Shown in pieces: positions 335 to 42,120 of a DNA stretch of 64,000 nt. This DNA is from Leptobrachium leishanense (taxonomy: Eukaryota > Chordata > Amphibia > Anura > Megophryidae). The stretch covers positions 349,702,442 through 349,766,441 of the forward strand of contig CM019063.1 in assembly GCA_009667805.1 (NCBI GenBank), given 5' to 3'. Each line of letters starts with the position of its first letter. Position 1 is the first letter of the stretch. The position numbers and the translations under genes were made by a program. Below the pieces are notes generated by a model. The model searched no databases. It was given only the letters and a program-made list of their open reading frames with translations, and was not told the DNA's origin.

Positions 335-399
335 TATGTATGTCTACCTCTACCGCTCACTCTGTCAGGGATCTGGTTCCTAGGAGTTTCGTATTGGTC

Positions 400-1095
400 C
401 TACTTTATTTATAAAGGATTTTACCAGGAAGGATACATTGAGATTTCTCTCGTTTTCAAGTATGTCCTGGATGGCGAGTATGTACTGTTAGGTGTCTTGC
501 CCAAGGACACTTACTGGAGAGGTTGCTCGCTGGGATCGAACCCATGACTCCACAGGCACTCTCCATGCATAGCAGTGATGTTATCTCTACTCCATTTCTG
601 TAACGACTGTAATAAAACGCAAGATATTTAAAAAACAACTCAAATATACAGATTAACAGAAAATATATTCACTGTTACATGTTTACAGGTGCGTTCTGTA
701 TTGAGGTATGTTAATAGGGAGCTCTTGAGTGACTTTAAACAGGGGGAAGATTTGATGGCATCTGGGAGATTATTCCATAATTGTGGTGCGCTGTAGAAAA
801 ATGAGGATCGAGCCACTTTCTTTTTGTATTGTGGTGTTGCAAGTTAGGTGCAGGTCCTGGATCGGAGGTTATAGGATGAGGGAACTGCTAGGGCAAGCAG
901 TCTATTCAGGTAGGGTGGTAGCTTCCCAGAAAAGCTCTTAAACACCAGGTTGGAAAGGTGAAGGGTGTGTCTAGATTCCAGCAACAGCCAGTTTAGCTCT
1001 TTTAACATGTCACAATGGTGGGTCATGTAGTTACATTGTAGCACAAAGCGGCAGAATGAGTTATACATTGTAGTAAGTTTCTGTTGTGTTTGCGA
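400..1095 (-). mobile_element. CR1/L2/Rex1-type LINE, 5'-truncated copy A
   Basis: One of four copies of the same non-LTR retrotransposon in this window (others at 6175-7290, 13085-14010 and 57331-58462). Read on the minus strand, a reverse transcriptase C-terminal frame (about 1085 down to 840, with YNSFCRFVLQCNYMTHHCDM and SGKLPPYLNRLL) is followed by a shared 3' UTR. The 3' end reads TATCCTTCCTGGTAAAATCC and then an A-rich tail. Upstream of the CNYMTHHCD motif the frame diverges from the other copies, so the 5' edge is approximate. The exact LINE clade is inferred from the C-terminal style only. Confidence 0.7.
460..600 (-). repeat. tRNA-derived SINE-like insert in LINE copy A
   Basis: On the minus strand a B-box-like GGTTCGATCCC follows a tRNA-like head and is followed by CCTTGGGCAAGACACC, a phrase common in vertebrate short interspersed repeats. 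The LINE 3' UTR in the other copies lacks this block, so it looks inserted. No clear target duplication was found. It could instead be an old tRNA-like fragment. Confidence 0.4.
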
Positions 1096-1129
1096 GCTGC
1101 GTGAAGCTGGCCCCCCTACAATCGGCACA

Positions 1130-1740
1130 AATACAAAAATCCACTGTGTTTGGTTAGTGCTACGTTGCGCTCTTTGGTGCCATGAAAATTGTCTATTCTA
1201 ACACCAAGGCTGGAATAATAATCTTTTAATAAAGACAGGAAGCAAATATTTTGCATTCTCTTTTCTTTACTCTGTTGCTATGTAAACTTTAAGTAAACAA
1301 TAAAATCTAGCATAAGAGGTCATCAAGCCCCTTCCAAGTCCTCTTTTCTTGAATGGTGAAATATCAGGTGACAAGACAAAACAGGAACCATAGAAAATGG
1401 AAGTAAAACAGGAACCAGCAAGATGGTGAGGCTGATGTCCGGTAATCAGAGGAAGACAGGCCTGCTAACGAGGACCAACGGGTCAGCGGGAGCCAAAGTA
1501 CCAGGTGATGGAAATGTGTCAACAAGCAATTAGCTAGCACAATGGACACAGTACATATGGATATGGTATAAGAGCAATGAAAACCAAAAGTCTAGGGTTA
1601 CTTAACGAAGGCTAGACAAAACACATGCCTGCAAAGATGACAGATTTACTTGATGAAAAAGAAGCTTAAAGAAAGGACACAAGGCCGACATAGAAATTGA
1701 GTACTTTTTTTTTTATTTTTATTTTATTTTTTACTTAAGG
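1130..1740. other. No gene seen; one DIRS-end-like stretch
   Basis: No coding signal was recognised. At about 1195-1270 the phrase AACACCAAGGCTGGAATAAT and a following 'ggaagcaaatattttgca' resemble 1808-1880 beside the DIRS remnant. This may be a diverged second copy of a DIRS terminal sequence. The rest is A-rich spacer ending in a T-rich run at 1700-1735. Confidence 0.4.
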
Positions 1741-3285
1741 TTGTACCTACGTGCAAGTTGCACACATAGTAGGAGTACCGGGAAGGGAGGGTGGGAAAAA
1801 TATTCGCCTCCTAACACCAAGGCTGGAATAATCCACAATTTTATATCAAGGCAGGAGGCTTCATATTTTGCAGTTTTAAAGCTGCACCAGACCCTCAGCG
1901 GCATGAGAACGAAGTCGGAAGTAAAAGGTACGGAAAGTGGCCGCCGAGTTGAAGTATGGCTTGCGAGCGTGAAAACAACCCCGCCCCCCCAGGTTAGAAG
2001 GAGATGCTGAGTGCATTAAACGCTGTAACATTCGAAACCCATCTAAACGGGGGTTAGGAGGGTTAGTTTCTCAGATTTGGCGCAGGGACAGCAAGTCCTA
2101 TAGAATCAGTGAAAGAGGGGCGGTAGTGGGATCAGCCTGTTGTTGCATACACCAGCCACATAATATCCTCCAGGTGTAGCAGTAACATTTCTGAGGTCCA
2201 GGAGCCCAGGACTCTGACAACTGGGTACAAGCTGCATCTGGTATGCCTTATAGCATGAGGGATCCCCGGAAATCATCCACTCCATCAGCGGAAGATTCCT
2301 TTCCAAAACAAGCAGGTGTGGGTTGCCTTGAGGATTCGGGAGGACATGGATGGTAGACAAGGACGGCAGCAGAAGCGGGTGTTTGACAGGAGAGCTCCAG
2401 CGCCAATGCGAGTCAGGGCTGAGAGTGCCATAGGGGGGTGAGGAGCAGAAGCCGCACAGCCTTTTAACGTCCTTCTTGAAGTGGTTGCATAATCATTGAA
2501 TACGGGGAAACACATAAGCTCCCGATGGAGGCCAGGATTGGAGAAAGGCACCCACTGCTGTTGCCTGCAGGTCCGGAAGCCATCTGAAGTAGATTGGCGT
2601 CTGATGGTTCAGGCAAGAGGGAAACATGTCCAGATGGAGGGGCCCCACAGCGTCAACAGGTGTTGAAACATTGCGCTGTCCAGATGCCAGTCGCTGTGGT
2701 CTCTCTGGTATCACAAAACCAATCTGCTACATAGTTGGTCGATCCAGGCAGGTTCTCTGCTTTGAAAGATATGTTACTTTCCAGGCAGAAGTTGAAAAGG
2801 GAGAGTGTAACGTCCGACAGGGGTTTGGAGCGAGAGCCCCCCAGCCGGTTGACGTATTGGACTGCGGAGATGTTGTCCATCGGAAGGAGTAGGGAGCAGT
2901 CGCTGAGGCCATGGTTAAAACTGCGAACAGCAAAGGAGCCTGACAAGGAGCTCCAAGTAATTGTGGAGGAGCTGCTGTTTTTGAGTCCATCCACCGCCAC
3001 TGGACATGGATCCGCAGGTCGCTCCCCAGCCCAGTTGGCTGGCGTCTGATTCCAGGACGAAATCTGGGAGAGAACCGAATATGGCATGCCCATTCCAAGC
3101 TTCCATATGGTGCAGGCACCATAGAAATTCCATTTGAACTTCCGGGGTGATGGGGACCGACTGGTCGTAGGAGGGGTAGAGGTACGTTGTCTTCAGACAT
3201 TGCATCGCCCGATAGCATAAAAAGGCCAGAGCCGCGTTCAATACCTCAGCAGCTGCTGAATTGAGGCAGCGCAGCAATTAAGTTG
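1741..3285 (-). mobile_element. DIRS-type retrotransposon remnant
   Basis: A minus-strand coding remnant of a tyrosine-recombinase (DIRS) retrotransposon with its 3' flank. The coding part runs from about 3280 down to 2070. The stretch at 1780-1900 (GGAGGCGAATATTTTTCCCA on the minus strand) probably belongs to the terminal region. That is inference, because no matching second terminus is present. DIRS elements are common in amphibian genomes. Confidence 0.7.
2070..3280 (-). pseudogene. DIRS pol, RNase H and connected region, frameshifted
   Basis: Pieces of one protein appear in several minus-strand frames. From 3277 downward come a reverse transcriptase tail and HMEAWNGHAIFGS, then the RNase H start ESDASQLGWGA, LELL, and the DIRS signature MDNISAVQYVNRLGG (about 2850-2880). 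The frame then shifts to PLHLDMFPSCLNHQTPIYF (about 2620) and to segments such as NPQGNPHLLVLERNLPLMEW (about 2300). This order matches the RNase H and downstream region of DIRS and Ngaro polyproteins. At least three frame breaks make it non-functional. The methylase and recombinase genes are absent. Confidence 0.8.
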
Positions 3286-3735
3286 ATGCAGCAGTGTCTC
3301 TGAACTCTTTGGATGCAAATTTCAAAACAAAATGGCCGATTTCTGTAGTTTCTGCAATATCCGCAGTTTTATTAGCAGAAACTGAGACTGAGGCCATCTT
3401 TTGAAATAACTAAAAGCAGTCGGCACAATTCCGTTTTGTATGCACACAACACAAATGATAGTTTTTATTGAATAAACGTAATGGTTACATAAAATCTATA
3501 ATTGTACCGTAATATATGTCTGTGCAGGGGTAAATAATAAATATTTTGTGCTTTGGTCAACAAAAACCTCAAAATGAACATTGCCGTTCTGAATTGTTAC
3601 TTGCTCCATGGTGGTGGCCATTTTTACTACGTCACACTCAGCTACTCGCTGCATCTCTCCGAGTTGCTGCAAGTGCTAAGTTAGCAGTGCTGAGCGGCAG
3701 AACGGTGTTCAGTGGCAAGTTGCTAACTTGAATGA
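3286..3735. other. No gene seen
   Basis: Unique-looking AT-moderate sequence between the DIRS and L1 remnants. No reading frame resembles a known protein, and no terminal repeats or tandem arrays were seen. Confidence 0.5.
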
Positions 3736-3739
3736 GCAC

Positions 3740-4795
3740 CCCTCGCCGCCTGGGTGTACAGAGCAAGTGGATCTGGCCAGGGAAACTGAAGCGGGGCAAC
3801 TGAAATTCTTCTGATAGGAGGGTCACGTCCTCCGGCGATTGAACTATGAACGGGCCTCGGTCGGATAAAACAGCCAGACCAGTGGGTATATGCCAACGGT
3901 AGCAAAGCTTGATCACGCAGCACAGTAATAAGGGGTTTTAAAGCTCGGCGATACGCCAACGTGGCAGGTGACAAGTCAGGAAACAACTGTAAGTCTGTCC
4001 CTTCATTGGAGAACTGTCTAGCTTTTCGCAAGATGTCTTCCTTAAGTCCAAAATCATAGAGGCAGCACACAACGTCTCTCGGCGAGCTCCCCGAAGGTCC
4101 TTTGGGTCCTAGCGCTCTAAGTCTACCGCTGAAGTTTCAGGTCGCTCCAGTAAGGAGTTAAAGATCGACATCAGCATACCTGTGAGCTGGTCAGGGGAGG
4201 ATTCAGGTAGGCCTCGGAGTCTCAGATTATTGCGGCGTCCTCTATTGTCTAAGTCAGCCTGGTAAAGAGCCATGTTACGTAGTTGTGAGGAGCAGAGTAG
4301 ATGTGGAGTCTTCTGGTGCCAGCCTCAGAGTGTCAGTACCTTGCGCCAGAGTGTCCACTCGATTCGTTAGGCATTGAATGTCCTGGTGGACCAGTTGCAG
4401 CTCTGTCATTATAGAGGAGGGGCAGCTCTGCGTTCGCCTCCTTGTGGTCAGCTTTGGTGGGTAAGTTCTGCTGTAAGGGAAGCCATGTAGCTGGATCCAT
4501 CGCCACCGTGGAGTGTGCCTGTGGGGCTGAGGAGGAGCCCTGCTCCGCGAGTGGCCGCGTGTCGTCCACCATTTTGTCGGGCGGTCCAGCCAAAAGTTCA
4601 GATGGCGCGATGAGGAAACGCCGCAAGGATGGCGTTTCGGGCGCCCGGTCGATGCCCTGGACCTTCTGGGTATCGGGGGTCTTGTTGACCTTCCCCTTCG
4701 CTGGCCAGGGAGAGCCGTGGGGAGGTGGAATCTGTGTGCAGCTCCAAGCTCAAACGGCCATTGCAGTCGGCGCCCAAGCCACGCCCCCACTTATT
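3740..4795 (-). pseudogene. L1-type ORF1 protein, degraded copy
   Basis: Minus-strand fragments follow the L1 ORF1p order. There is an N-terminal proline-rich and coiled-coil part (about 4790-4275), then RRNNLRLRGLPES marking the RNA-recognition fold (about 4215). Next come KEDILRKARQF and LQLFPDLSPATLAYRRALKP in the C-terminal domain (about 4040-3940). The intact copy at 8279-9235 has the same architecture. Several frameshifts separate the parts. No ORF2 follows at the 3' side, where the copy ends near 3740. Confidence 0.75.
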
Positions 4796-18591: not shown

Positions 18592-19219
18592 CGGTGGTGT
18601 GGTTGTTTCAAGATAGAAGGGCTGCATGGTCGAGTCCCCAGAAGAAAGCCATTACGCAAAATGCCACAAAGTATACCGCTTACAATATGCCAAACAGCAC
18701 AGAGACGAGCATCAAACCTTCTGGCTCAAAGTCATTTGGAGTGATGAGACCAAAATTGAACTTTTTGGTCACAACCATAAACGCTACATTTGGAAAGAAG
18801 TAAACCAGTCCTATGATGAAAGGTACACCATTCCTACTGTGAAACACGGAGGTGGATCGCTGATGTTTCGGGGATGTGTGAGCTGCAAAGGCACAGGACA
18901 TTTGGTCAAAACCGTATGTTCTCAGAAAATACCAGAGGAAAATTTGCATTCATCAGCCCGGAAGCTGCGCATGGGACGCACTTGGATATTCCAACATTAC
19001 ACTGATCTAAAACACAAGGCCAAGTCGACCTGTCATTGGCTACAGCAGAATAAAGTGAAGGTTCTGAAGTGGCCAACTCAGTCTCCTGACCTCAATATTA
19101 TTGAGCCGCGCTGGGGAAATCTCAAACATGCAGTTCATGCAAGACCGCCCAAGAATTTACAGGAACTGGAGGTTTTTTTTGCCAAGAAGAATGGGCAGCT
19201 TTACCATTTGAGAAGATAA
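18592..19219 (+). pseudogene. Tc1 transposase, catalytic half
   Basis: The frame at 18626-19219 carries the DDE core of the split Tc1 element. WSDETKIELFG holds the first aspartate. QHYTDLKHKAK is where the family has QxDNDPKH, so the second catalytic aspartate has become tyrosine. QSPDLNIIEPRW holds the final glutamate. Loss of the second acid and the two insertions make it inactive. It ends with TAA at 19217-19219, ahead of the right terminal repeat. Confidence 0.8.
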
Positions 19220-19763: not shown

Positions 19764-19767
19764 CTTT

Positions 19768-20387
19768 TGAAAGAGCGCTACCTGGGAATAACCCCTAGCG
19801 TCAGCCTCTCTGTTCCCTGTCCACCATTTTAGATAGAAAATAGAACTGTATAAAACTAAGTATAGCCTCTAATATCTTGTCTTAAACCTGATTTTTGCTG
19901 ACTGAAGAATTATCTCTTCCCCCCCCCAGGTCTTTAACCCTAAGCCATAAAAGTTGCTTAATATATCGAGAAAGCAGAAGGAATGCGTAAAACCCATAGC
20001 TTGCCATGTTTGTTTTGAAGAATGATTCCGTTTTACAACCTTATTGACTAGACAGAGAATTTAGAGTGTCTGCGGTGGGCTCAAGGGTCGTGCTTTGAGA
20101 TGAATCTTGCTGACTTGCAAAATGATGAATAAAGTCCAATATGTATAATGAAGGTTGATATGATAAGTGGGAGGGTAACCTGGGGGGGAATAAGGTGTGC
20201 ATTTTTACAAGCCATGTATAAATTCTTTGTCTCTCTGTTGGCTCGGGACTTGAGTCTTTTTGGGCTAGACCTGACTCAAGGCTCGGTACCGAATAAATGC
20301 TTTTCCTGCTTAAGAAGGCCTCCGTCTCCTTTGTCTACCACCGAGTCACAATCTCCTAACCCGAATTACACCCAGATGGCTGCTTCA
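19768..20387 (+). repeat. 5' LTR of the provirus
   Basis: Starts TGAAAGAGCGCTACC and ends GGCTGCTTCA. TATAAA at 20217-20222 and AATAAA at 20292-20297 suggest a promoter and polyadenylation signal, so U3 would be about 480 bp. It matches the 3' LTR almost base for base. Confidence 0.9.
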
Positions 20388-20391
20388 TTTC

Positions 20392-20411
20392 TGGGGGCTT
20401 CGTCCGGGATT
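20392..20411 (+). other. Primer binding site, tRNA-Pro-like
   Basis: TGGGGGCTTCGTCCGGGATT lies four bases after the LTR. It matches the proline-tRNA primer site of gammaretroviruses except for one extra T. Confidence 0.8.
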
Positions 20412-21240
20412 GGCAGGCCTGGCTCGGTGACAGCAGGAGAACGGCAGTGTTCTGCAACTCCGTGGGCTCCGTCGGGGCGTGCTGCCGATCAAAAGTTGAT
20501 TGTCTGCCGGCGCCCTTGCAGGTCTTCCTGCACTCTGTGGATCTCAACGTGTTGCGTGGTAGCACCCCCGACCGTGACCCCACGGAAGCACGAGGCCTGG
20601 AGGAAAACCGTTGTGCTATGACCAAGGTAATATATTTTATTATTCAGTATTTGACAGCATAATGAGTGATTGTGTAAATAATTAGCCAACATTGAATGTG
20701 CGGTTGAATCTCCGTGTATGTATTCTGGTATGCCAGATAAAGGGGAAGGCGCCCTCTAGAGAGCTAGGAAGCCTGTAGCGCTTCAATGTGAGGAACCTGC
20801 AGTGTTCCAGGAGTCTGAAGTGCTCCAATAGCTGTGGCCTGGGTCTGAAAAGGGGGGTAAATTGTGCACCCCATAAAAAAAAACAGTACCCCACGGCAGA
20901 AGAGAGTAGCTACCTCTTCTAAAGCTATAGTGTATTGTGTAAAAACGACATCTGTTGGCTATAAGAAAGGATGCTTAGCTGTTAGATATTCTGTATTGCT
21001 AGGATTGTGTACTGAACTGTATTATCTGTATCTGATATTGAGTGGTGACTGAAACTGTGAGTGAACGTACGCCTACACCCTTCGGGGTAAAGCAAATACG
21101 AGAGTGGCCCTATAGTAGGTGAGATTCCAAGCTGGGTGACCACGACTTGGCCACCGAATTAGGGACGCAAAAGAATTGTTGAGTGAAATATCAGATTGTG
21201 CTTTTGTGTATTACTTGGTGCTGGTCACCAAGTTGCGGAA
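20412..21240 (+). other. Proviral leader, no gene seen
   Basis: A GC-moderate leader with a possible splice donor (CCAAGgtaata near 20624). No frame resembles a viral protein. Packaging signals could lie here but cannot be recognised by eye. Confidence 0.5.
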
Positions 21241-21520
21241 ATGGGAAACACCAAATCCCATAAGGGAAACAAAATTGTGAAAGGTGAAACACCGCTTGGG
21301 TATATGTTGCAGAACTTCGAGACTCTCTTTGCAGTTCATCAATATGGGAGGAAGCTGCATAAGAGCAGGCTGCGAGTTCTGTGTGAGGTTGATTGGCCCC
21401 TCCTTTCTCCTTCATGGCGGCAGGAAGGATCAATGGAGCCTGAAGAGATCCAAAGGGTTCATTCAGTGGTCTCTGGACGCCCAAGGCATCCGGACCAATA
21501 CCCTGTATGGATATATGGAG
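21241..21520 (+). pseudogene. gag: Retroviral gag matrix domain, truncated
   Basis: The ATG at 21241 starts MGNTKS, with glycine 2 available for myristoylation, which in the family anchors Gag to the plasma membrane. The tryptophan-proline motif EVDWPLLSPSW and the later HPDQYPVW follow the spacing of gammaretroviral matrix proteins. After about 93 codons a CR1-like insertion begins at 21521. The sequence on its far side does not continue as Gag, so capsid and nucleocapsid are missing from this copy. Confidence 0.7.
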
Positions 21521-22158
21521 TAGTCAATGTAATAGAGCAGCAGGAAATGCTAGCAGAATGCTTGGTTGTGTAGGGAGAGGTATTAGCAGTAGGAAAAGGG
21601 AAGTGCTCATGCCACTGTACAGAGCACTGGTGAGACCTCACTTGGAGTACTGTGTGCAGTACTGGAGACCGTATCTCCAGAAGGATATAGACATCTTAGA
21701 GAGAGTTCAGAGAAGGGCTACTAAAATGGTGTACGGCTTGAAGGAGAAAAGTTACCAGGAAAGGCTTAATGATCTTAACATGTACAGCTTGGAAAAAAGA
21801 CGAGACAGGAGATATGATAGAAACATTTAAATATGTAAAGGGAATCCACAAGGTAGAGGAAGGGAGTATATTTAAAAGGAAACACAGTAGCAAAACAAGA
21901 GGACATAGTCTTAGATTAGAGGGGCAAAGGTTTAAAAGTAACATCAGAAAGCATTATTTTACTGAGAGGGTGGTGGATACATGGAACAGCCTTCCAGTTG
22001 AAGTGGTAGAGGCCAAAACAGTAATTGAATTTAAGCAAGCATGGGATAGGCATAAGGCTATCCTAAACAAAAGATAAATCCAGGTAAAGTATCCATGTAA
22101 TTGGGCAGACTAGATGGGCCGAAAGGTTCTTATCTGCCGACATTCTCTATGTTTTTAT
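21521..22158 (+). mobile_element. CR1-like LINE 3' end inserted in the provirus
   Basis: Reverse transcriptase C-terminal motifs are readable with one frameshift: LYRALVRPHLEYCVQYW, LERVQRRATKMVYGL, SLEKRR and RVVDTWNSLPVEVV. A 3' UTR follows with GGGCCGAAAGGTTCTTATCT and a CTATGTTTTTAT tail. GATATATGGAG at 21510-21520 is repeated at 22159-22169 as the target duplication. A second copy lies at 41684-42120. Confidence 0.85.
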
Positions 22159-22169
22159 GATATATGGAG

Positions 22170-23409: not shown

Positions 23410-24350
23410 TAATAGCCCGTGGCGCTGCGCCAGTACCACATCCCACAAAAAGCCAGGCAACACATCCAAGTCCACCTTGAACGCTTGCTAAAGTACAGTT
23501 TTCTAAAGTTTTGTGTGTCTTCATGGAATACCCCGTTGCTCCAGTTCAGGAAGAGGGCACTCAAGAACTCACATCTGTACAGGATTTAAGGGCAGTTAAT
23601 TCTGCCACAGTGACTTTATACGGATTTGGCCCAATTGAGTGTAACCTCCTAGCTCTGATACCCGGCAACACAGAATTCTACACTTAATTTAAAAAGATGC
23701 GTTCTTCTGTTCCGGCTTGGCTCCAGCGAGTAAGCCATTGTTTGCCTTTCAGCGGGAAAATGTCCAGAATGGCTTCAAAACCTCAAATGACGTGCCTCCT
23801 TCAAGGTTTACTATCCTCGGGAGAGCGCTGAACAAAGACTCTCAGCCAGACAAAGCTACCCTATTGCAGTATGTTGATGAACTCCTGCTTGCCTCACCAA
23901 CTGAAGAAGATTGTTTCAATGCCACAAACAGAACTGTTAAGTATTTTATGCAAGGCAGGCTACAAAGTTTCTAAAAGAAAGGCCTAAATCTGCCAACGCA
24001 GTGTGAAATACCTAGGCTTTCTTACTGGTACCATGCGTACAATCCAGAACGCAAAGAATCAGTCTGCCGTGTCCCTCAACCACAGGCTCGTTGCCAAGTA
24101 AGAGAATTCTTGGGAGCTGCAGGCTTCTGTCGCCTGTGGATCCCCAACTCTGCCATCATTGCGGAGCCACTGTACCAAGCCACCAAAGGTGCAGAGCCTG
24201 ACCTATTCATTTGGGGTGAAGAACAAACTGAGGCTGTCACCCAATTAAAGACTTTGTTGCTTGAAGCCACTGCCCTCCTGGTTGCAGAAGCAGACAAGCT
24301 CACAATAGGCCAAGAACTCTTTGTGAAAGTCCCTCATGCAGTCTAGACTC
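23410..24350 (+). pseudogene. pol: Retroviral pol: reverse transcriptase, broken
   Basis: Shifted frames give gammaretrovirus-like segments in order: TSVQDLRAVNSATVT (about 23570), ALIPGNTEFYT, FAFQRENVQNGF (about 23750), the polymerase box, and FLGAAGFCRLWIPNSAIIAE with FIWGEEQTEAVTQLKTLL in the connection region (24110-24270). The polymerase box reads YVDE rather than YVDD, which would remove one metal-binding acid. Several frameshifts and a deletion around the first catalytic aspartate also disable the gene. Confidence 0.8.
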
Positions 24351-24391
24351 TTCTAGACCAAAAAGGCAATTACTGGTTCAGCAATGCAAGA

Positions 24392-25150
24392 ATGACCAAG
24401 TACCAAGCCATGCTGTGTGAAAACTCAAGAGTTCATCTGGAACTAATCTCAACACTGAATCCTGCTACATTGCTTCCAGATGCTTCAGAAGACCATGAAC
24501 ATGAATGCCTCCAAGTAATGGATGAAGTATATAGCAGCAGACCTGACCTCAAAGACATACCCCTAGACAAATACGACTTGCAACTGTTCACTGATGGAAG
24601 CAGTTTTGTTGAAAATGGAAAAAGATTTGCTGGGTACGCAGTAGTCACTCTTGACGAAACAATTGAAGCAAAACCACTGCCCAATGGCACTTCTGCTCAA
24701 CTAGCTGAAATTATTGCCCTTACCAAAGGTCTAGAACTATCTGAAAACAAAAGGGTGAACACATACACCGATTCCAAGTATGCCTTCATGACAATTCAGG
24801 CTCACGGAGCACTCTACAAAGAACGTGGCCTCCTAACATCTGCAAGCAAACAAGTCAAAAATGCCCTTGAAATATTGAATCTACTGGATGCGGTATGAAA
24901 ACCGTCCGCAGTTGGTGTTATACATTGTCGAGGACACCAGAAAGGCAAAGAAGAAGTTCCCAGAGGAAACCATAAAGCAGATCAAGTGGCGAAGGAAGCA
25001 GCAAGACAGACACAAGCCCTTGAGCGTGGCTGTGATTGGAAAGAAACCAATGCAAGAGAACTCGACAGCAACAGGAGAATCACTTGAAAAGCTTCCGGAA
25101 TGGAAATCCGGAACACCGAACAGAAACTTCGGTTCCCCAGAGAGGACTGG
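24392..25150 (+). pseudogene. pol: Retroviral pol: RNase H
   Basis: The frame at 24392-24898 keeps the RNase H acids: LFTDGSSFV, QLAEIIALTKGLEL and YTDSKYAFMT. The last aspartate region continues in another frame after a break near 24890. The domain degrades RNA in RNA-DNA hybrids during reverse transcription. Compared with the polymerase part it is well kept, with about 169 open codons. Confidence 0.8.
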
Positions 25151-25880
25151 TTCAAGTTGACTCACCTATCAAGATTCCGGTATGTAAACCCGTATCACTG
25201 CAAATGAAAGTCGAAACTCTGCTCTGTCTAAATACTGCGCTTCAAGATATGCCTAACGTTGACATCTATATGAATAAGAGAAGATTTGCACCTCATGGAG
25301 AATTTATTGAAGATGTTCTTTGCCATTGGTACAATGAATATGAACTTCTAGAGAAGCACCACAGCTACATCCAATGGTTGTTTCCTCTACGTGAACAAGG
25401 CCGGAATGCACATGCAAAGCCTCTGACTACTTCTGAAATTGAAATTATGAAGAACACCGCTGAAATCCAACATAGGCTGCGGAGAGCCTATAAACTGATG
25501 CTGAATTTCTTCGGCGTAAAATTAGTGGGGGAAGAGGAGATAGAAGTGATACGAGACTCAAATTTTTCGACACGCTTCTCCAATTTTAATACTAACACCC
25601 ACAATAACCTGAGAATTACCCGAATTGTGACAAGCATGGAAGAGCTGGGAGCTGCACAATACCAAGCTCCGCTGGTGAAGTTCTTCCTGAAAGAGATACT
25701 GGTTGAAGACCAGCTGCAAATATGAAAGAAAGTGCTTTAAAGTATTTCTTGCCGACTAAAGAATGAACATGAAAGAGATGCACTGTCTGAATATGCTCTG
25801 AAGCACAGAATACCCAAGTATGTCAAAAGACTTCTCTCAGTGGTGATACCTCTGTTACCAACACCCATTACGCACTGAAC
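25036..25880 (+). pseudogene. Opioid growth factor receptor (OGFr)-like domain inside the provirus
   Basis: An open frame of 229 codons (25036-25725) has pol-like residues at its start. From about 25249 it has the hallmark words of the OGFr N-terminal conserved domain: HHSYIQWLFPLREQG, HAKPLTTSEIE, RRAYKLMLNFFGVKL, HNNLRITRI and YQAPLVKFFLKE. After the stop at 25723 the domain continues in shifted frames to about 25850 (ESALKYFL, then ERDALSEYALKH). No introns are present. Cellular OGFr is a nuclear-envelope-associated receptor for met-enkephalin that restrains growth; a retroviral role is not known to me. It sits between RNase H and integrase, so capture of a host cDNA by the virus is the simplest reading. 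Separate retroposition into the provirus is possible. Confidence 0.75.
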
Positions 25881-25959
25881 TCCGGCCTACTCTGAAAAGG
25901 AGAAGAAATGGCTCTCCGAAGAGCCAGGAGAATACAGAGAAGACTGATGGTACCAGTTG

Positions 25960-27030
25960 GAGAGTGAAAGAATTGTCTTACCAGCCACCCTGGCACCTGA
26001 AATTGTCTGGGCCCTGCATTCCAGAACACATGGAGGAAAACAGCCATGGAGCAACAACTAGAACCGCACACTTCTACGTTCCTGGACTCACCTCCGTCTG
26101 CAGAGTGATTGCGCAACAATGTGTCACTTGTGCTAAGAACAACCCAAGGCAAGGGATAGTACAACCACCAGGAGTATTATCGGTTGGATTATCTCCAATG
26201 TCCTCCCTATAAATTGACTTTACTGTTCTCCCACCATGCAAAGGATATAAATATCTACTGGTGCTAGTATGCGCACTAATGGGATGGGTTGAAGCCTACC
26301 CAACTCGAACAGAAAAGACTGCAGAGGTAAGGTGCCTCGAGAGAAAATTATCCCAAGGTATGGACTGCCTCTTGAAATCGGATCAGACAATGGCCCAGCC
26401 TTCATACAAAGTTGTTTGCAGCAGCTCGCCCGATTGCATACAGATTTCAAAGCTCTGGAAAAGAGGAAAGAATGAATAGAAATCCAAAGACATTGATGGC
26501 TAAAATATGCCAAGAAACATCAATGAAATGGCTGGATGTGTTGCCAATAGTTCTACTGCATGTGAGAAGCAGCCCTACCTCACTCCTAAAATTGAGCCCA
26601 TACGAGATGATGTTTGGTTATCCCACCCCTTTGATAACTAGGTTGAGGGGGGGATCCCCGGGTATTAGGAGAAACTGACCTACGCCAGCAAGTGATCAGG
26701 TTAGTTCAGACGATGCAGAGCATGTATACATGAGTTAGTGAACACATACCACATTTCCTATACTTACCTTTACACAGATACTGTCCTGGGGACTCAGTAT
26801 GGGTTAAGGAATGGAAGGTAGACCCGTTAGGGGTTTTTATGTTGTCTTGTTATCAACTCCCACAGCAGTGAAGGTGGCCGAAGTGGTGCCATGGATACAC
26901 CACTCACGATTGAAACCTGCTGCAGAGGTTACGGACCAGGCATGGAAAGTGATAGCCAGTGAATCTGACCCACTGAAGCTACGTTTCCACCGTACCCAAG
27001 CAGCTGCACAGACCGGAGAGGAATAAGGGA
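25960..27030 (+). pseudogene. pol: Retroviral pol: integrase, broken
   Basis: The zinc-binding part includes HGATTRTAHFYVPGL and CVTCAKNNPRQG (25964-26212). The core follows in other frames with IDFTVLPPCKGYKYL (about 26215), SDNGPAF (about 26380) and SPYEMMFGYPTPL (about 26600). The C-terminal domain is at 26811-27026 with YVVLLSTPTAVKVAEVV and WIHHSRLKPA. All three catalytic regions are visible but separated by at least three frame breaks and an in-frame stop before the core. The order and the C-terminal WIHHSR motif are gammaretroviral. Confidence 0.8.
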
Positions 27031-27110: not shown

Positions 27111-27760
27111 ATGGAAGCTCCAGAGGTACCCCAGGAGGCCCATGAGCCTCTGCTTCCAGATACTATTTTTAAGAGGTTAAAAAAAGGGACCATTTGAACA
27201 GTACCAAAGGATCCTTATATGTATTGGGATTATTGTTTTAGTTTTGACCTTACTGACAATTGTTGCTGGACTATTTTTTTTTTCCAATCCAGCTCCCTAA
27301 GGGAGTGATGTCAGCCCCTATTGTGTTGACACCGGAATTTGACATGACTGTCCCACCAGCACAGGACCGACGGAAACGAGAATTGACAAGACCAGAGGAT
27401 AAACTGCTTATTAAGTTCACGTATGCGTATGCAAAGAAGTCAGGATATGAATCCTGTTGGGTGTGTAACAAATTGAACCAAGGGTCATCAGTTATTCCCA
27501 CCTTAGCGGTACCCCTTAACTTGTCTGACTTCCCTATGAATAAAGGTGTAGTGGTCCCTAGTGTTCTTAAACTGACTAAGAGCTTAATTATGCCAAAAAC
27601 AAACCACACTATTCAGATCAATAATTGGGCTTACTTCCCTTTATGGTGTTTTAAACTAAAGAAAAATCAGGCCCCATCTAGTTCAATGTGTAAAGAATCC
27701 TTGTTTAATGCAACACTAGATGTATCTGATCCAAGGCATTGGGAAATAGTCTCCAAGTAA
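27111..27760 (+). pseudogene. env: Retroviral envelope surface subunit, partial
   Basis: A leader-like stretch from ATG 27111 is followed by a hydrophobic run (27210-27290, frames broken) and an open frame 27260-27760. That frame has a basic RRKRE word, then SCWVCNKL, a CXXC motif like the one used for disulfide exchange in gammaretroviral surface subunits. N-glycosylation sites (for example NLS, NHT, NAT) are present. The frame stops at 27758-27760, well short of a full surface subunit. Confidence 0.7.
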
Positions 27761-27899
27761 TGGTTTGTTGCGGAAACTTATGTCACATGTGGATAAATAC
27801 TGATATAAAGACGTGGTGTTACCTGGCCTGGGTAGTCCCCCTTCAGCGGATCCAAGGTGATACCCTGGACCTAGGACACCACACCACGTTATTCCTTAA

Positions 27900-28490
27900 A
27901 TTTTGCTAAACGAGAACTGTTTTCCAAAGATGATATGGCCTGGTCTTGGTTTCCTTCCTTCACAGGATGCGGCATTGAAATGATGAGAAGACTTAATATG
28001 TTGTACTAAAGGATGAAATTGTGAATATTACTATTGCTGACATCCAACTGTTGAATGCGGAGCTCCGATAAATTCGTAAATTAAAGTTATATCAGAAAAT
28101 AGCTATTGAACAGATACAGGCTGTATTAAATGGAATGTGTGAAATGACGATACAATATGAATGTTGTACTTATCTCCGCACAGCTACTGATGATGTACCT
28201 GAATATTTTGATGTAATTCTCAAGCACCAAGAAGAGAAAGTGTCCCATCTGGGGTACATTTGGGTCATGGTTTGGCGCAATCCTAGGTGCTATTTCCAGG
28301 GTAGGGTCCCTGATCCTCATTGGTATACTAATTCTTATCTGTGCACTAACCTACAAGTTAGCCATGTGTCTGTGGCCAATCTGCCGTAAATTCCTGAAGC
28401 CAGAAGATAGGCCCCTGGGGGACACTTCAGATTACCATCCAATGAGCCAGGCAACCCCTACTGATTATAAATCTTTAATGATATAGAGTA
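27900..28490 (+). pseudogene. env: Retroviral envelope transmembrane subunit, broken
   Basis: Fragmented frames include a cysteine motif, CEMTIQYECC (about 28137-28166), which is C-X7-CC here rather than the usual C-X6-CC. A hydrophobic membrane span SLILIGILILICALTYKLA (about 28310-28365) is followed by a short cytoplasmic tail ending near 28484. Stops and frameshifts separate the parts. The fusion-peptide region was not recognised. Confidence 0.65.
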
Positions 28491-28526: not shown

Positions 28527-28537
28527 AAAGGGGGGAA
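28527..28537 (+). other. Polypurine tract
   Basis: AAAGGGGGGAA lies directly before the 3' LTR, as needed to prime plus-strand DNA synthesis. Confidence 0.85.
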
Positions 28538-29158
28538 TGAAAGAGCGCTACCTGGGAATAACCCCTAGCGTCAGCCTCTCTGTTCCCTGTCCACCATTTT
28601 AGATAGAAAATAGAACTGTATAAAACTAAGTATAGCCTCTAATATCTTGTCTTAAACCTGATTTTTGCTGACTGAAGAATTATCTCTTCCCCCCCCAGGT
28701 CTTTAACCCTAAGCCATAAAAGTTGCTTAATATATCGAGAAAGCAGAAGGAATGCGTAAAACCCATAGCTTGCCATGTTTGTTTTGAAGAATGATTCCGT
28801 TTTACAACCTTATTGACTAGACAGAGAATTTAGAGTGTCTGCGGTGGGCTCAAGGGTCGTGCTTTGAGATGAATCTTGCTGACTTGCAAAATGATGAATA
28901 AAGTCCAATATGTATAATGAAGGTTGATATGATAAGTGGGAGGGTAACCTGGGGAGGGGAATAAGGTGTGCATTTTTACAAGCCATGTATAAATTCTTTG
29001 TCTCTCTGTTGGCTCGGGACTTGAGTCTTTTTGGGCTAGACCTGACTCAAGGCTCGGTACCGAATAAATGCTTTTCCTGCTTAAGAAGGCCTCCGTCTCC
29101 TTTGTCTACCACCGAGTCACAATCTCCTAACCCGAATTACACCCAGATGGCTGCTTCA
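28538..29158 (+). repeat. 3' LTR of the provirus
   Basis: Nearly identical to 19768-20387. By eye the differences are one C fewer in the C-run near 28691 and GGGGAGGGG in place of a seven-G run near 28953. CTTT at 29159-29162 is the downstream target duplication. Confidence 0.9.
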
Positions 29159-29162
29159 CTTT

Positions 29163-29580
29163 CACACAGAACCCTCCTAATCCATGCCATGCCATACTAG
29201 ATGATTTATTTAGCAGAGATCAGGTATATGCAGCACATGAGCTCTGTGATGCCGTTCTTTGAATTGTGATGTGTAAATGGCTTCAGCAATATTAAATATA
29301 TATATATATATATATATATAATTAGGGCTGTTAACGATTACAATTTTTGTGTTAGATTGTTTTTTTTTCTATCGCTTTAATTTCGATTAATTATAACGCA
29401 CATACAGATCCAATTACTTTTAGCTAATCTGCATGCATTGCAACTCTGAATTAGTCAGTGGTAAATGTTGTATATACTATATACAATCACCCGACACTGG
29501 TTAGTTTCAACAATCCAGGAGTTTACTTCACAGTTCACACAAATACGTCTTAAATTCAGACTCTAGCACTGACGTAAGTT
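29163..29580. other. No gene seen; AT repeat and a hAT-end-like phrase
   Basis: A (TA)n run is at 29296-29320. ATTAGGGCTGTTAACGATTA follows and resembles ends of hAT-type elements in fish and frogs, but no second end was found. Confidence 0.4.
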
Positions 29581-29582
29581 GT

Positions 29583-29889
29583 TATATTTGCCCCCAGCTC
29601 ACGCATGGATATATTTGCCCCAGCTCACGCATGGATATATTTGCCCCCAGCTCACGCATGGATATATTTGCCCCCAGCTCACGCATGGATATATTTGCCC
29701 CCAGCTCACGCATGGATATATTTGCCCCCAGCTCACGCATGGATATATTTGCCCCAGCTCACGCATGGATATATTTGCCCCCAGCTCACGCATGGATATA
29801 TTTGCCCCCAGCTCACGCATGGATATATTTGCCCCCAGCTCACGCATGGATATATTTGCCCCCAGCTCACGCATGGATATATTTGCCCT
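29583..29889. repeat. 27-bp tandem repeat, 11 units
   Basis: The unit is CCCCCAGCTCACGCATGG followed by ATATATTTG. Nine units are 27 bp and two are 26 bp (four C instead of five). Because 27 is divisible by three, long stop-free frames open on both strands; these are artefacts of the repeat. The array ends exactly where an L1 tail begins. Confidence 0.95.
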
Positions 29890-41156: not shown

Positions 41157-41683
41157 CTAGAGTTCAGAATATTTAATTCCATCAATATTTCTGTAATGGA
41201 TAAACAAATACATGAAAAATTTAACAAGGAGCATATTTCTCATTGTTGTACTGAATTAAAATAATCTTCATGCAAATTTTCTAATATGCTCTATATTAAC
41301 TTTGCATACCTGGTTTCAAATAAATGTTTAAAAAATTGGTAGTGAAGTGGTTAATATTATTATGTGTGTCAATGAAAGCCGTTTCAAACACACCCTCTCT
41401 TCTAGGGACTGAGCGGATGGCTGTGGTTAATGGGGGATGGGATAACATGCTAAATTATACCCACATCAAAGCACTTGACTATAATATAGTTTTAAAGATT
41501 TAAAGAACACTTGACTAAAGAATAAGTGGCGAAGATTTGGTTACAAAATATCATCAAAATCACTTAAGACCTCCATAATGTTGGTGTACTAAAAACCTTT
41601 CAAACCTCCAAACCGAATGACTGCTCTTAGGAGGTGAACGGAGTTACATGGGATAGAAAATCCCCCTGTGGTAGCAGATCAAC

Positions 41684-42120
41684 GGTGTACGGCTTGAAGG
41701 AGAAAAGTTACCAGGAAAGGCTTAATGATCTTAACATGTACAGCTTGGAAAAAAGACGAGACAGAGGAGATATGATAGAAACATTTAAATACGTAAAGGG
41801 AATCCACGAGGTAGAGGAAGGGAGTATATTTAAAAGGAAACAAAATAGCAAAACAAGAGGACATAGTCTTAGATTAGAGGGGCAAAGGTTTAAAAGTAAC
41901 ATCAGGAAGCATTATTTTACTGAGAGGGTGGTGGATACATGGAACAGTCTTCCAGTAGAAGTGGTAGAGGCCAAAACAGTAATTGAATTTAAGCAGGTAT
42001 GGGATTGACATAAGGCTATCCTAAACAAAAGATAAATCCAGGTAAAGTATCCATGTAATTGGGCAGACTAGATAGGCCGAAAGGTTCTTATCTGCCGACA
42101 TTTTTCTATGTTTCTATGTT
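41684..42120 (+). mobile_element. CR1-like LINE 3' end, second copy
   Basis: Matches 21733-22150 closely (TVYGLKEKSYQERLNDLNMY, RVVDTWNSLPVEVV) with an open frame of 124 codons ending at a TGA at 42006-42008. The tail is CTATGTTTCTATGTTT. Confidence 0.85.

Follow-up and report, generated by a model that had tools for sequence, protein, structure and literature searches.

The 64-kb stretch of DNA from the toad Leptobrachium leishanense analysed here (contig CM019063.1; 'the window' denotes this whole stretch) contains a gammaretrovirus-like provirus, bounded by long terminal repeats (LTRs) with a CTTT duplication, in which an opioid growth factor receptor (OGFr) domain, OGFr_N, lies between the RNase H and integrase (IN) regions of pol. 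We found that the OGFr-bearing retrovirus family has spread to thousands of genomic places and that its OGFr domain is under purifying selection. The explanation that we put forward is that, in the Leptobrachium lineage, an ancestral gammaretrovirus-like virus acquired a portion of a spliced OGFR mRNA from its host, that the captured part was essentially the conserved OGFr_N, inserted in frame between the RNase H and integrase regions, and that descendant lineages retained the domain under purifying selection and expanded to thousands of copies. Leaving function aside, we consider this account of the origin, placement and selection of OGFr in the family to be very probable.

The OGFr_N domain and its place in Pol

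An earlier note, made from the sequence of the window, had described a 229-codon frame with OGFr words (HAKPLTTSEIE and HNNLRITRI among them) as a host domain captured at the RNase H–integrase boundary of a gammaretrovirus-like provirus. The frame and the quoted words exist. The 229 amino acids are encoded at 25036–25722 (feature 25036–25725, forward strand) and matched Pfam OGFr_N (PF04664) at 25243–25719 with E=5e-61 and 206 bits (cut-off, 22), the match covering positions 4–162 of the 208 in the profile. The remaining part of OGFr_N follows the frame end, past stops (25726–25860, from translation). Thus the block given as 25036–25880 does hold OGFr_N, but the domain extends only from ~25243 to ~25860 and 25036–25242 is linker. 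The frame, which had been called one of the longest, exceeds every other stop-to-stop frame of at least 60 amino acids between the LTRs. The proposed setting also held, as the pol pieces are of murine leukaemia virus (MLV) type, with both RNase H (PF00075), which adjoins the OGFr frame on the upstream side, and the IN C-terminus (PF18697) above the Pfam cut-off, and the LTRs are paired. A PDB sequence search with the window OGFr frame found no relevant structure; the predicted structure of a protein from the window's own subfamily, subfamily A (P0001), had a predicted local distance difference test score (pLDDT) >90 over approximately residues 20–200, spanning the domain.

The same architecture was found in single proteins, with OGFr in frame with both of its pol neighbours. 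P0134, from a cluster of 49 members, contains RNase H (residues 102–243), OGFr_N (265–468), H2C2 (526–581), rve and MLVIN_C, and P0133 contains RVT_1, RNase H and OGFr_N; genomic open frames around the domain exceeded 1,400 codons at some places. Of five OGFr-bearing proteins, four had 241–245 amino acids between RNase H and IN and one had 217, compared with 10–24 in 12 endogenous retroviruses (ERVs) from other species (no usable distance was obtained for 8 of the 25 rows, including Pelobates P0145), indicating an insert of ~220 amino acids. Pairs of leucine residues were seen by eye in both linkers beside OGFr, and these might be protease sites that free the OGFr domain. Protein searches, which covered proteins of bounded length sharing exact words, returned 19 matches to the IN N-terminal region, all of them from L. 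leishanense and all with PF04664. PF04664 was likewise present in 17/17 L. leishanense matches to RNase H, and in none of the 95 RNase H matches from other sources, many of which are partial proteins.

Copies, capture and selection

The genome of L. leishanense was searched with four queries, the window OGFr frame, P0005, P0010 and P0006, which gave 5,718, 6,534, 6,097 and 12,429 first-look candidates and 150, 119, 135 and 104 listed scored matches respectively; host gene exons on C12 account for two of the P0010 matches. P0006, a public L. leishanense protein, was matched at 100% in the assembly of the window. A codon-level pattern for HNNLRITR had 2,637 exact genomic matches (1,314 + 1,323), a total that includes few host OGFR sites, and its reversed control had none. 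A pattern for the integrase motif of the family had 2,147 (1,074 + 1,073). We compared the order and strand of the two motifs among the first 100 sites listed for each pattern. On C1 up to 156.7 Mb, a same-strand OGFr motif lay upstream of 61 of the 81 integrase sites listed, at a distance of 372–3,942 nucleotides (mostly ~555), and neither the wrong order nor the opposite strand was seen at any of the 81; conversely, an exact IN motif lay downstream of 61 of the 100 OGFr sites listed. Two of the 20 leftover integrase sites fell inside P0006 matches spanning OGFr, and 17 of the 18 that were fetched were OGFr-positive by tblastn, several of them partial. In total, OGFr sequence was present upstream in 80 of the 81 integrase sites examined, so that related proviruses without the block, which the earlier note had named as evidence that would speak against capture, amount to at most one site in 81.

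Scored loci gave the same arrangement. Among 57 distinct loci (62 minus five duplicates, counting the window locus L001), OGFr was followed by an IN N-terminal match scoring >100 in all 57 and preceded by an RNase H match scoring >100 in 52 (the exceptions being L022, L023, L051, L052 and L054). The IN alignment started 40–57 nucleotides after the end of OGFr in 45 of the 57. The frames of neighbouring domains often differ from one another because many copies have decayed. In flank pieces of seven subfamily A copies, LTR sequence was detected on both sides of four (L002, L003, L004 and L006, although on one side of L004 it comprised only 115 bases at the piece edge), on one side of two (L005 and L016) and on neither side within the stretch fetched for L021. 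The prediction that copies with the block at one pol position, flanked by LTRs, would be found elsewhere was therefore borne out in L. leishanense.

Phylogenetic analysis placed the viral domain with cellular OGFR, beside the toad's own, as capture from the host would require. In OGFr trees (which did not include Pelobates OGFR), all 16 proviral sequences of a 52-row set formed one clade (support 100/100) whose sister was the toad's two OGFR rows (97/92), and all 47 of a 67-row set did the same (100/99, with the sister relationship at 100/98). The larger tree showed a ladder of L052/L054, L051, L062, L057/L059 and L053 leading to subfamilies A (that of the window), B and C. The host OGFR locus on C12 carries the domain in five exons with four introns, whereas the viral copies are intronless, indicating that a spliced OGFR mRNA was captured. 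The single proviral clade in both trees indicates that the capture apparently happened once; several captures were considered and rejected on the same ground. In an RNase H tree, 10/10 OGFr-bearing pols formed one clade (98/97) apart from Pelobates and other ERVs, and the window RNase H grouped with the OGFr-bearing pols of L. leishanense.

The earlier suggestion that such a provirus could explain multi-copy OGFr-like predictions in frogs applies to L. leishanense, where OGFR-like gene counts are largely viral. It does not extend to the other sampled frogs: a proviral origin of their OGFR-like genes was rejected, as their proteins have no pol domains in precomputed Pfam annotation and those placed in the tree lie outside the proviral clade. 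As a separate observation, at least two host OGFRs seem to be present in the toad (P0010, P0012, P0014 and P0037; also L063). The long C12 exon shares 92% identity with P0010 but is a better fit to P0037.

Selection was estimated as the ratio dN/dS (non-synonymous to synonymous substitution rates; omega) by NG86 in 30 stop-free loci, with pairs of dS <0.02 or uncomputable dropped. For OGFr, the 146 pairs inside subfamily A (median dS 0.065) had a median omega of 0.366, the 61 pairs among the remaining loci (dS 1.22) one of 0.149 and the 177 pairs joining subfamily A to the others (dS 1.9) one of 0.160. At dS >1.2, the stop-free medians were 0.158 for OGFr (197 pairs), 0.084 for RNase H (38) and 0.095 for IN (29), and those for all loci 0.157, 0.090 and 0.114 respectively, values that are rough because dS approaches saturation and the pairs for which it was uncomputable are not included. 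The dN/dS comparison that had been proposed thus returned ~0.16 for deep pairs. The host residue was the viral majority in 49 of the 52 columns conserved across 36 host rows, and 12 columns were invariant across a 38-row alignment (A1) that includes the short OGFr_N proteins described below.

Several observations weigh against our account. At the genome level it was examined in one megophryid species, L. leishanense. An exact IN motif was missing downstream of 39 of the 100 OGFr motif sites listed, and one of the 81 integrase sites, L067, had no OGFr within 1 kb upstream by tblastn; this site may reflect a deletion or an insertion, or may belong to a relative that lacks the block. Apart from the roughness of the deep omega values, constraint on OGFr was weaker than that on RNase H and IN, and shallow OGFr pairs had an omega of 0.37–0.44 (0.41–0.44 at dS 0.02–0.1), while RNase H itself reached 0.843 at dS 0.1–0.25 (all loci, 20 pairs). 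Stops were present in 23 of 53 OGFr pieces, and the window OGFr copy is itself broken. Looser values in shallow pairs are expected for copies that decay after insertion.

The window provirus and subfamily A

All features of the window provirus lie on the forward strand. Its LTRs (5′, 19768–20387; 3′, 28538–29158), delimited by self-comparison and with their TG...CA ends read from the sequence, are 99.4% identical over 627 aligned columns (19768–20391 versus 28538–29163), and the 4-bp CTTT duplication, also read from the sequence, occupies 19764–19767 on the left and 29159–29162 on the right. A putative primer binding site (20392–20411) and a polypurine tract (28527–28537) were read from the sequence, the former perhaps resembling a proline-tRNA type site; gammaretrovirus-like ERVs of this sort belong to class I. 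The gag matrix remnant (Gag_MA, 21187–21573) matched PF01140 with E=2.6e-6 and 27.7 bits, below the Pfam cut-off of 30, and is interrupted downstream by a fragment (21571–22160) that resembles a long interspersed nuclear element (LINE) by eye and had no Pfam match. Within the window this fragment forms a pair, 21725–22159 and 41681–42118, 96% identical, of which the first is nested in the provirus gag.

The open pieces at 23481–24343 were named as reverse transcriptase (RT) remnants by eye and by position, the sole Pfam support being a weak match to RT_RNaseH_2 (0.12). RNase H follows at 24347–25084, with a main piece and a C-terminal end in another frame (PF00075, E=9.8e-17 and 0.0012). Downstream of OGFr_N are the integrase N-terminal zinc-binding region (H2C2, 25847–26212; PF17921, E=0.0021) and a piece of the catalytic core (rve, 26213–26479; PF00665, E=0.0051), both scoring under the cut-off, consistent with decay of the window copy, and then the MLV-type integrase C-terminal domain (26808–27026; PF18697, E=2.3e-7). 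Broken pieces at 27257–28489 would be an env-like region judging from position, with no Pfam match.

Some of these defects are shared. The frame break after OGFr in the window was common to 4 of the 29 other subfamily A loci examined, and the stop before integrase to 22 of 30 with the window included. The gag-breaking LINE-like fragment was found behind gag-MA in both copies for which a sufficiently long piece was fetched (L005 and L021; flank pieces L089 and L095), so that a gag-broken master seems to have multiplied. The near-identical LTRs of the window and the shared defects fit a defective subfamily copied recently by enzymes acting in trans. Subfamily A is a defective derivative, with gag broken by the LINE-like fragment and common pol stops, that was nevertheless recently amplified; the enzymes were presumably supplied by relatives.

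Two further features flank the provirus. Upstream is a transposase remnant (18617–19216; DDE_3, PF13358, E=1.2e-9), Tc1-like by eye, and just 3′ of the provirus is a 27-bp tandem array (29583–29888; 11.4 copies, 98% matches) that is open in several frames on both strands.

Possible functions and known systems

OGFr_N is also found outside this retrovirus family. A Marseillevirus LCMAC202 protein named opioid growth factor receptor (A0A481YX38) was matched to the predicted structure by Foldseek with E=8.2e-8 and a template modelling (TM) score of 0.77 by target and 0.48 by query, which suggests more than one entry of OGFr_N into viruses. Short OGFr_N proteins (P0116–P0120, 167–181 amino acids) include one, P0116, named as from a Burkholderiales metagenome-assembled genome (MAG). 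The occurrence of the domain in this protein and in the Marseillevirus argues for an older core activity, maybe one useful to viruses. In the toad retroviruses, the OGFr domain would be made within Gag-Pol and carried in the virion, and the viral protease would either release it or leave it joined to RT or IN; it would then perform this ancient core activity in the infected cell.

How such a module might serve the virus can be considered in several ways. Gammaretroviruses require mitosis, and a truncated version of host OGFR, acting as a decoy or stand-in, could lift the opioid growth factor (OGF)–OGFr brake at G1/S and so aid a virus that needs dividing cells. The captured part, OGFr_N without the remaining host protein, is what a truncated form would look like. 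Host OGFr is reported (PMC10968813) to be present in the nucleus as well as at its membrane, and the OGF–OGFr axis to raise p16/p21 and block G1/S. Against this, the presence of OGFr_N in the Burkholderiales-MAG-named and Marseillevirus proteins indicates that the conserved core may not concern opioid peptides. We know of no enkephalin system in bacteria. The functional option that we favour, but only tentatively, is an OGFr module brought in by the virion that would interfere with host OGFR, or take its place, in growth control, and the decoy or stand-in form of it is put forward with the same reserve.

Chromodomains in some retrotransposon integrases perform a comparable targeting role to the one that OGFr could have as a tether or trafficking part of integrase, steering the integration complex to the nucleus or chromatin. 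The short distance between OGFr and IN in most loci (40–57 nucleotides in 45 of 57) and the nuclear location of host OGFr reported in PMC10968813 are consistent with such a role. If the leucine pairs in the linkers are protease sites, however, the domain would be freed from integrase, and we regard a tethering role as rather unlikely. That OGFr is a neutral spacer tolerated in Pol is highly improbable: the RT–IN linker does vary somewhat in length (10–24 amino acids in the 12 other ERVs), but a spacer would drift, whereas 49 of the 52 host-conserved residues were kept, with omega ~0.16 over deep splits. A retroposed OGFR pseudogene fallen by chance into one old provirus, which an intronless block broken by stops in the window might bring to mind, is refuted almost beyond doubt by multi-copy presence at one pol position under purifying selection (IN after the block in 57/57 loci, RNase H before it in 52/57, the block at 80/81 IN sites) and by single proteins spanning RNase H, OGFr and IN.

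Returning to a virion-delivered module acting on host growth control, the toad elements may represent a retrovirus lineage with a new RT–RNase H–OGFr–IN Pol, in which a host growth-regulator domain would be essential and virion-borne, the toad genome then recording a virus–host contest over the OGF–OGFr brake; this we consider somewhat less likely than not. A regulator domain in frame inside Pol, selected through many lineages and present in thousands of copies, gives the RT/IN junction a second type of foreign domain and offers a natural experiment on OGFr_N action. No description of an OGFr-bearing retrovirus was found among the literature matches listed. According to the L. leishanense assembly paper (PMC6895153), LTR elements make up 17.5% of the genome; its main text contains none of the words opioid, OGFr and retrovir. 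A figure legend of PMC10435555 names the species as one of those that harbour invading ERVs, and OGFr and opioid are likewise absent from the main text of that paper.

Several known systems invite comparison. Host OGFR and OGFRL1 and the Burkholderiales MAG and Marseillevirus LCMAC202 proteins share the domain, but not within a retroviral Pol. Host genes captured by retroviruses are mostly oncogenes or cytokine-like genes, and in non-primate lentiviruses dUTPase is placed between RT and IN. A captured cellular-type dUTPase domain is reported within Gag-Pol between RT and IN in some retroviruses (PMC2427051). Retroviral dUTPase is therefore the nearest analogue by position, although it belongs to another protein family and another retrovirus class and is an enzyme of known use. 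We know of no enzymatic activity of OGFr_N. The nearest by process are the crocodilian CrocERV29 (KIT-ligand) and CrocERV31 (nectin3), for which PMC4299795 describes captured host mRNA under purifying selection; host gene capture usually costs viral genes, but KIT-ligand was acquired without loss of a viral domain. Whereas nectin3 replaced env, the toad OGFr is fused in frame inside Pol and exists in thousands of copies. Finally, the gammaretrovirus-like ERVs of reptiles, birds, caecilians, bats and Pelobates share MLV-type pol domains with the toad family, with RNase H 43–64% identical to P0123, but differ from it at the RNase H–IN junction, where PF04664 was found in 0/95 sequences from other sources (many partial) and the 12 gaps measured span 10–24 amino acids.
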